This document shows positions 1 to 2,546 of a stretch of 42,621 bases of DNA, one piece after another. Source of the stretch: Alphaproteobacteria bacterium (GTDB lineage: Bacteria > Pseudomonadota > Alphaproteobacteria > Rs-D84); contig JAFXGD010000033.1 in NCBI GenBank assembly GCA_017513285.1, positions 1 to 42,621 on the forward strand, in the 5' to 3' direction. The translations under genes were made by a program, and so were the position numbers. How positions within the stretch are numbered: position 1 is the stretch's first letter; each line of letters opens with the position of its first letter. The notes beneath the pieces are model-generated. The model searched no databases. It saw only the letters and a program-made list of their open reading frames with translations, and was not told the origin of the DNA.

Positions 1-226
1 CGCCCACCGGTGTATTTTGCCAATCCAACGGTGTATCGGCATTGGGGATGATTTCCAATTCGATTTCTTTGGCCAATATATTTTCTGTTGGTTCTTCTTG
101 TTTGTTTCCCAACAGCAAAAACATCAGTATCAGCACAACAATAAAAGCAATTGCCAACAACAGCCATTGAACCTGTTTTGGTGTATTTTTTTTGAAATCC
201 GCTAATTGTTGTTTAAAGTTACTCAT
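1..226 (-). CDS. virB10: VirB10/TrbI-type secretion channel protein, N-terminal part only
   Basis: Only the first 75 codons lie in the window; the gene runs off the left edge. The protein starts MSNFKQQLADFKKN, has one hydrophobic segment at about residues 21-40 (WLLLAIAFIVVLILMFLLL), then an acidic, proline-containing stretch. That is the layout of VirB10: a short cytoplasmic tail, one inner-membrane helix, and a long periplasmic arm. The defining C-terminal barrel is not visible, so the call rests on this topology and on position 43 bases after virB9 in the order virB8-virB9-virB10. In the family it spans both membranes and links the energy modules to the outer-membrane pore. A GGGGTTGGGAG purine stretch precedes the ATG. 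An F-type TraB protein would look similar here. Confidence 0.7.
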   Translation of the reverse strand, partial: MSNFKQQLADFKKNTPKQVQWLLLAIAFIVVLILMFLLLGNKQEEPTENILAKEIELEIIPNADTPLDWQNTPVG

Positions 227-269: not shown

Positions 270-1835
270 TTATTGTATACGCACAACGTTGCACGGTGCA
301 TCTCCACCGGTTTGCTTAATCAATTTATTGCACAACGTCTGCGCTTCATCGATTGTGGCAATTGGCCCGATACGCAATCTGTATAAACTTGCAGTAGATG
401 CACCTTCACCCAAATCGCCGACGCCTTGTGCGTCAATTGCATAGAATACTTTATCTTCATATGGGTCTAACAGGCCACGTGCATCGGTTCCCGAAAAGCG
501 CGCCAATAAATTTGCCCAATATTTTTCCAATGCATCTGTTGATGTGTCCGAATATAATTCGACGGCGACGCCGCTTTGGTTGCTGGCGATTACCGGTATA
601 TTATTCTGTGGCAGGTATGCGCCGGCGGTATTGCGTTCTTGGGGCAACATGTTAATTACACTGCCCGAACCATTGGTTGGCATTTGGGCCGGTATTTGTG
701 TTGGCATACCGTATCCGGCGGGCATATAGTATCCTGCCCCTGTCATTGGATTAACGGTTGCTTGATTGCCCATAAATACGGGTGTCCCGGTATAGCCGGC
801 GCCCATGCTCATTGCGGCCATGCTGTCTGTATATGCGATATTGTTTAACGATTGTCCCGACAGCATGCTTTGTGCGACATTTGCTTCGGCCAACGCCATA
901 ACCGATGCGGTATCTGCGATTAAGAATGGTTTTTCACGTTTTTTGATACATACAATTCTTTGACCGCTGCGCAAAACCATATCGCCAACGGCTTCGACGA
1001 TTAACAGTCGGCCGTCTTCACCATCTGTACGAAAACCGACGGGGGATTCGCCACCTTCGACCAACAAAGATACAACGGGTCTTTGTGTCATAGAAATAAC
1101 TTTATCCCCAAAGTCGATATATGTAAATATGCGGTCACGCCAAACACGTTCCGGCGCAATTACATAGTCGTCCGGATTTGGAACATAAATATCCAAATCA
1201 AAGCGGAATTCAGACGGATCAATTTTCATTGATTTAATCCAACCGTAATCTTCACCATCGACACCAACTGTAACGGGGCCACTGGATTTCTTTGTAAAGA
1301 TAGAACCTGCACCACCGCCGGCCTTGGTGGCGGCACCTGCGCCTGCGATTGCGGGGGCGCCCCTGTCCAACACCACATCTACCTGAGAGTATGTAATTTC
1401 ACTGGCGTTGGCGGGTTCAGCCCTTAAATAAAAGATATATCGGTTACCAGAATTACCTGTAACAATCATATTTGTGTCCGAACCAAAGTTATCTACGGCC
1501 GGACTGATGAACATGGTTTTGTCGCCTTGGGTTGCGTCAACGACAAATTGACTCTGGTCACCAATTTGAATGTCGGCAATTTGTTCGCCCATTGGCAAAT
1601 TAACCATTGTTAACATTCCATTTCGTAATTTAATTGGTAATACCGCCCCCTGTGACCACGACAGTTGGGCGTATCCTGGCTTAATACTGCCACTGGCCAT
1701 ATTGGCGGTTGGGTTGTCCCATGCGTATTGCACACCATTGAAACTGTCGGTGTTTGCATTGACAGACACGCATGTCAATATGCCTGCAACAGCCACTGCA
1801 TAAACGTTGCCTTTAAATACTTTTGCCCAATTCAT
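270..1835 (-). CDS. virB9: VirB9/CagX-family type IV secretion protein with C-terminal SPOR-like domain
   Basis: A 521-aa exported protein with a signal peptide of about 27 residues ending near VSVNA. Residues ~50-145 match the VirB9 N-terminal domain (LTMVNLPMGEQIADIQIGD, then IFYLRAEP). Residues ~200-305 match the C-terminal CagX domain (PERVWRDRIFTYIDFGDK, then LRSGQRIVCIKK). VirB9 forms the periplasmic/outer-membrane ring with VirB7 and VirB10. A Met/Gly/Pro/Asn-rich linker follows, and the last ~40 residues (YRLRIGPIATIDEAQTLCNK and on to the end) look like a SPOR domain, the fold that binds denuded peptidoglycan. Ordinary VirB9 is about 250-300 aa, so both linker and tail are extra. The start has a good ribosome site (AGGAAGGACAAG-ATG). 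It lies 42 bases after virB8. Confidence 0.85.
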   Translation of the reverse strand: MNWAKVFKGNVYAVAVAGILTCVSVNANTDSFNGVQYAWDNPTANMASGSIKPGYAQLSWSQGAVLPIKLRNGMLTMVNLPMGEQIADIQIGDQSQFVVDATQGDKTMFISPAVDNFGSDTNMIVTGNSGNRYIFYLRAEPANASEITYSQVDVVLDRGAPAIAGAGAATKAGGGAGSIFTKKSSGPVTVGVDGEDYGWIKSMKIDPSEFRFDLDIYVPNPDDYVIAPERVWRDRIFTYIDFGDKVISMTQRPVVSLLVEGGESPVGFRTDGEDGRLLIVEAVGDMVLRSGQRIVCIKKREKPFLIADTASVMALAEANVAQSMLSGQSLNNIAYTDSMAAMSMGAGYTGTPVFMGNQATVNPMTGAGYYMPAGYGMPTQIPAQMPTNGSGSVINMLPQERNTAGAYLPQNNIPVIASNQSGVAVELYSDTSTDALEKYWANLLARFSGTDARGLLDPYEDKVFYAIDAQGVGDLGEGASTASLYRLRIGPIATIDEAQTLCNKLIKQTGGDAPCNVVRIQ

Positions 1836-1877: not shown

Positions 1878-2546
1878 TTATTCCATGTCCAGTGGATCTG
1901 TCCCGCCTTCTACAACTTTGTATTGAACCACCTTTAACCCCAGTGGGTTTTCCAATCTGTTTTTCCATTTTACAGTTGTGTTGTCTGTTGCGATATCTAT
2001 ATGCAGTTTGTATGGTGTGTTGGTTGTTTGGCCAAAGCGGTCTGTACAAACATTTTCAATGGCGACCTGATATCTTTCTTGGTTTTTGGCTTTGATGTCC
2101 ATGGTTAACTGCTGTACAGATAATATTTTAACAACGCATGTTTTTTCCGGGGTTTTATTGCCCATATATTTTCTGAATGCACTGGTTTTAGAGAAGGCAT
2201 TATACACCTTGTCGTCGGACCACATACGTATTGCGCCATTGTCGGAATTCCACTTTTTCTCCATTGCGTTTTTATTTTGATATATTTCGTTTCTGTGTTG
2301 AATATACTCACGCACAAAGGCATTTTTATAATCACTCAACATTGTGTCTGTTTTTGGGATATTGTTTGTCACCATGATATCTTCGTTGGTGCGATTTTTC
2401 ATTTGCAGAAAGAAAATCTGTGGTCTGTTCAATGGAAACATATTGTACACAGTCACCACCAAAATCCCCAGTGTTACCAACAATCCTGCCAAAACAAAAG
2501 TGGTAATTTTGGTCTGTAAAACATTGGGTTCTGTGCGTGTTGTCAC
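1878..2546 (-). CDS. virB8: VirB8-type inner-membrane assembly protein of type IV secretion
   Basis: A 222-aa protein if it starts at the GTG at 2546, which has an AGAAGGAG site six bases upstream; an in-frame ATG further upstream has no such site. Residues ~14-35 form one membrane helix (FVLAGLLVTLGILVVTVYNM). The rest is a periplasmic domain with the VirB8 signature region near the end (ENPLGLKVVQYKVVEG; compare the NPLG-x-x-V-x-x-Y motif of the family). VirB8 dimerises in the periplasm and nucleates assembly of the channel. It is the first gene of the minus-strand unit, with a promoter directly upstream. Confidence 0.82.
   Translation of the reverse strand: MTTRTEPNVLQTKITTFVLAGLLVTLGILVVTVYNMFPLNRPQIFFLQMKNRTNEDIMVTNNIPKTDTMLSDYKNAFVREYIQHRNEIYQNKNAMEKKWNSDNGAIRMWSDDKVYNAFSKTSAFRKYMGNKTPEKTCVVKILSVQQLTMDIKAKNQERYQVAIENVCTDRFGQTTNTPYKLHIDIATDNTTVKWKNRLENPLGLKVVQYKVVEGGTDPLDME

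Follow-up and report, generated by a model that had tools for sequence, protein, structure and literature searches.

A C-terminal SPOR domain on the VirB9 protein of a Candidatus Enterousia-like member of the order Rs-D84 (Alphaproteobacteria)

VirB9 proteins build the outer-membrane ring of type IV secretion systems (T4SS), and PDB entry 6gyb contains 14 VirB9 chains. How the core complexes of these systems pass through the peptidoglycan and are held in it is poorly understood. Secretins form a family apart from VirB9. The type II secretion system (T2SS) secretin LspD of Legionella carries an N-terminal SPOR domain (PMC6617341, PMC9239104), and it is through the AMIN domains of PilQ that the type IVa pilus machine reaches future division sites, no dedicated wall hydrolases taking part (PMC5285504). 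LspD and PilQ, with which GspA/GspB were counted, are precedents for a wall-binding domain on a secretion pore that were not cited in the first-pass annotation of the DNA described here; for VirB9 itself, no report of a SPOR domain was found in the open-access literature searched. In the SPOR domain of RlpA, the side chains of Q270, R302 and R309 are in contact with the glycan and R311 completes a basic patch, Q270 (FtsN Q251) being the sole glycan-contacting side chain described as highly conserved across the solved SPOR structures (PMC6895207). Here we present a VirB9 protein with a confirmed C-terminal SPOR domain, together with its gene context, its distribution and a proposed role.

The window, i.e., the whole stretch of 42,621 nucleotides that was analyzed, is from a bacterium that is, or is very closely related to, Candidatus Enterousia (order Rs-D84, Alphaproteobacteria). 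The named homologues (at least 67% identity) belonged to Candidatus Enterousia and to broadly named Alphaproteobacteria, many of them from animal guts. Enterousia is a member of Rs-D84; its genomes measure about 1 Mb or less, and its life is probably partner-dependent (PMC12306168).

The virB9 gene, which the first-pass annotation had placed at positions 270-1835 with no strand given, is real and is formed by an uninterrupted minus-strand open reading frame (270..1835, ATG start, 521 aa) that contains CagX and SPOR within a single frame; a plus-strand reading of the same interval was rejected for its many stops. All parts of the protein are given on the minus strand. A probable Sec signal peptide, judged by eye from the sequence, covers residues 1-27 (1755..1835; VSVNA followed by N), and the CagX/VirB9 core covers residues 57-299 (939..1667; PF03524, 80.8 bits vs a cut-off of 34.2, E 1.6e-22). 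It is followed by a variable low-complexity linker (residues 311-421; 573..905), recognized from its composition (enriched for A, G, M, N, S, P and Q) and from low pLDDT in the full-length model, and by the SPOR domain (residues 422-521; 273..572). The cut-off of the VirB9 equivalog model TIGR02781 was missed by far (53.6 vs 217.7 bits), and by these scores the protein is a divergent member of the wider VirB9/TrbG family, not a TIGR02781 equivalog. The virB9 genes of two Enterousia genomes contain one in-frame stop each (G034:C35:4209-5672 and G018:C19:3265-4728), due to assembly error or decay.

The gene virB8 (1878..2546, minus strand; PF04335, E 5.1e-13) lies upstream of virB9, and its GTG start at 2546 agrees with the starts in relatives better than TTG at 2600. 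Downstream of virB9 is the start of virB10, of which only the 5' end is present (1..226, minus strand), cut by the contig end; an intact relative (L057:10483-12897) matches PF03743. Upstream of virB8 are a tRNA-Trp gene on the plus strand and then a series of genes (nusG, ribosomal-protein genes and rpoB/rpoC) whose names come from their sequence. Genes for VirB4, VirD4 and a 330-aa VirB11-like ATPase are located elsewhere in the genome, and a VirB3-like gene, scoring below the cut-off, adjoins that for VirB4. VirB6 (PF04610) was matched by Pfam in one of 15 genomes only, and the model may not reach divergent members of this polytopic family; regarding VirB7, the lipoprotein partner of VirB9, the place examined was the 42-bp gap between virB8 and virB9, in which no candidate fits. 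With VirB8, VirB10, VirB4, VirB11 and VirD4 all found, assignment to a vir-type T4SS is supported, completeness being less certain given VirB6 and VirB7.

Several features of related genomes are recorded here. The VirB10 of the Enterousia relative mentioned above has 804 aa, with about 208 residues after TrbI (L057:12271-12897) that have no Pfam match and a Cys-containing very end (NCCPSAGGDCFPPLI), and the VirB10 of another Rs-D84 family (L036) has 623 aa and ends soon after TrbI. In the latter genome, two membrane-protein-like genes of 319 and 275 aa (L036:2555-4334, plus strand), with no Pfam family over the cut-off, lie directly 5' of virB8 and are possible extra T4SS parts. Nearly all relatives encode a 547-aa GspE/PilB-type ATPase besides the 330-aa VirB11-like ATPase (G000:C30:3539-4750, G000:C67:4779-5117); its conservation suggests a type IV pilus or a T2SS in these reduced genomes.

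Regarding the tail, the first-pass annotation had proposed a VirB9-SPOR fusion and named a profile search, a structure prediction and a survey of relatives as checks; all three bore it out. PF05036 matches residues 482-508 with 22.6 bits in the full-length protein and up to 26.6 bits (E 7.6e-6) when the tail is scanned alone, against a cut-off of 21. The match in the window protein is short (27 residues, about profile positions 40-66 of 76), and all 16 homologous tails, from Rs-D84 and one neighboring family, matched SPOR as well (best E 5.7e-9). A profile of free alphaproteobacterial SPOR domains aligned to residues 419-508 (profile positions 6-80 of 89) with 27.9 bits, whereas the best of 500 shuffled tails reached 3.7 bits. 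Because these free domains were chosen by likeness to the tail, this profile is not fully independent, and Pfam serves as the independent test of the SPOR call. Against PDB sequences, a profile of the tail alone gave no match at E up to 1; with the free SPOR domains added, the CwlC SPOR domain (1x60) was the sole match with a credible E (5.7e-4).

An AlphaFold2 model of the tail (mean pLDDT 76; input of 35 sequences from one genus) predicts the RNP-type beta-alpha-beta-beta-alpha-beta fold, with, counted from residue 415, strand 8-16, helix 19-33, strand 49-55, strand 69-78, helix 81-95 and strand 102-106. Its top-ranking Foldseek neighbors were the RlpA SPOR structures 6i09 and 6i05 (probability 1.00, TM by target 0.70-0.72); since the E-values are modest (1.2e-3 and 3.5e-3), the weight of the SPOR call comes from the agreement of several lines. 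The full-length model (mean pLDDT 49) again separates the SPOR domain and agrees in that part with the tail-only model, and is uninformative on the C-terminal half of VirB9 and on SPOR packing.

Among 150 Rs-D84 genomes, 140 yielded a VirB9 match, and all 140 extend to the SPOR end, apart from two residues in one genome. The linker varies freely among relatives while the SPOR tail stays. Outside Rs-D84, the class survey recovered VirB9-SPOR proteins in at least seven alphaproteobacterial families (f8, f27, f37, f53, f56, f78 and f95), the remaining VirB9 proteins of the survey being without SPOR. In 398 genomes drawn across the phylum, no VirB9-SPOR was found beyond the genus of the window; carriers from the class's other families were missing from this sample too, which makes it a weak negative for the remainder of the phylum. 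Plasmid-borne VirB9 proteins matched the core only, at best to residue 279 of a 497-aa query, and thus no SPOR form was found among them. In a tree of the VirB9 core, the SPOR-bearing proteins fall on one side of a branch with support 99; in a tree of SPOR domains, the VirB9-linked domains fall on one side of a branch with support 90/77, which with 98 columns is not decisive. One old fusion followed by vertical descent fits both trees and is the simplest reading. Beside the VirB9-linked domains in the SPOR tree, on a very long branch, is the C-terminal SPOR domain of a 524-aa putative lipoprotein (L181:2078-2335, minus strand).

At the position of RlpA Q270, in the first strand, the window protein has Glu426 (558..560, minus strand). 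Glu occupies this position in 65 of the 66 VirB9-linked SPOR domains and Asp in the other, whereas Gln is present in 20 of 21 free domains and His in one; all three other SPOR proteins of the window's own genome keep Gln, and the putative lipoprotein has His. Fisher's test on this contrast gives p of about 1e-20, a value that ignores shared descent and so overstates independence. The change removes the side-chain amide by which RlpA touches both the lactyl carboxylate and the N-acetyl group. In the third strand, Arg486-Leu487-Arg488 (372..380, minus strand) were aligned with the basic patch R309/R311 of RlpA (PMC6895207), which serves the NAM carboxylate, an assignment based on the motif YRLRIGP rather than on coordinate superposition. 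The R309 position is occupied by 59 Arg and seven His in the 66 VirB9-linked domains, and the R311 position by Arg in all 66, vs 14 of 21 free domains. A C-terminal VxRxQ is near-invariant in the VirB9-linked domains, more so than in free ones. As judged from alignment and model, the domain has kept its fold and part of its binding site, and the most diagnostic SPOR residue was apparently altered a single time, early on, and held thereafter.

One reading of this pattern, which we put forward tentatively, is that of a T4SS-dedicated SPOR subfamily in which the exchange of Gln for an acid would have shifted recognition to a different wall feature, the pore ring anchoring the T4SS to a specific wall site; it would have had a single origin in an ancestor common to Rs-D84 and at least seven other alphaproteobacterial families. 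Its target could be, for example, N-deacetylated glycan, whose free amine could pair with the acid, or a partner carried by a peptide or protein. The change offers a clean single-residue hypothesis on the basis of SPOR specificity.

Small RNP-like domains are common oligomerization modules. It is conceivable, if somewhat unlikely, that the SPOR fold now serves the T4SS outer-membrane complex for protein-protein contact or ring formation and that glycan binding was lost. The acidic residue in place of the key Gln in every member and the VxRxQ constraint speak for this; however, Arg at the R311 place is held more strictly than in free SPOR domains, and the linker, long and variable, does not look like that of a domain packed in a ring.

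The first-pass annotation had the domain bind denuded septal peptidoglycan and so place the pore at division sites. In this canonical SPOR role the T4SS would be placed or pre-installed at such sites, as PilQ AMIN does for the type IVa pilus (PMC5285504), and both the fold and the best structural neighbor, the RlpA SPOR domain, are as expected. An AmiC-like amidase (Amidase_3), which could in principle make denuded glycan, was found in 11 of 11 genomes. The window's genome has a single Slt-type transglycosylase (575 aa) and no short VirB1-like SLT protein, which makes a need for a pre-opened wall plausible; by analogy, this inventory resembles the pre-installation of the pilus machine by PilQ. 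The acidic exchange in 66 of 66 domains, in a genome whose three other SPOR proteins keep Gln, nevertheless makes septal targeting improbable. Of the earlier interpretation, the fusion is supported, as are the identity of its tail as SPOR and the RNP-type fold, and the targeting of denuded septal peptidoglycan is the weak part.

A passenger domain without selected function, or an assembly or annotation artifact, to which the 27-residue Pfam match in the window protein would by itself be open, is very improbable and is contradicted by the retention of the tail, with its invariant residues, across Rs-D84 and seven other families while the linker drifts.

The reading that we favor, and consider moderately probable as a whole, is that this VirB9 belongs to a dispersed chromosomal vir-type T4SS and that a single ancient fusion gave it a flexible periplasmic linker and a SPOR-fold domain, with which the ring would grip glycan and hold the core complex at the wall. 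What the analysis shows of this is the identity of the domain, its predicted fold, the gene context and the conservation. With 14 VirB9 chains per ring, as in 6gyb, a ring of about 14 SPOR domains would be expected beneath the pore, and glycan strands may be gripped via the Arg patch together with the first-strand backbone. With about 110 residues, the linker has the length to reach the wall, so that high avidity for strands could result from the many heads, even with each one weaker than the RlpA SPOR domain. We infer a periplasmic location, the copy number in the ring, wall binding and an effect on insertion, which would perhaps be biased to places where the amidase has opened the wall. Since the Arg patch is kept and the first-strand Gln is changed, wall tethering, as judged from the domain and from analogous machines, is likely, and targeting to septal denuded glycan possible. 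The isolated SPOR domain of about 100 residues makes the question of wall anchoring directly testable, in gut bacteria with reduced genomes that are thought to be partner-dependent (PMC12306168).

Compared with the VirB9/TrbG/CagX family (PF03524), represented by VirB9 of 6gyb, the window protein has the CagX core and the virB8 and virB10 flanks in common, but is longer by about 210 C-terminal residues, which make up the linker and the SPOR domain; its sequence match to the 6gyb VirB9, in the C-terminal part of the latter, is very weak (E 0.83). With the RlpA SPOR structures it shares the predicted fold and the third-strand Arg patch. By sequence, the closest kin found are FtsN-like SPOR proteins of Alphaproteobacteria, which have a Cys pair in common with the VirB9 tail. 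It differs from usual SPOR domains in the acidic first-strand residue and in its carrier, a T4SS pore subunit instead of a division protein or hydrolase. PilQ AMIN likewise is a peptidoglycan-binding domain on a pore subunit, but of another domain family and another machine, and its localization has been shown, whereas VirB9-SPOR is known from sequence and model. The VirB9-SPOR protein is a combination of known kinds for which no report was found. A true precedent is LspD, in which a SPOR domain is likewise part of a secretion machine's outer-membrane pore subunit, although that subunit is a T2SS secretin and its SPOR domain is N-terminal, not C-terminal as in VirB9.
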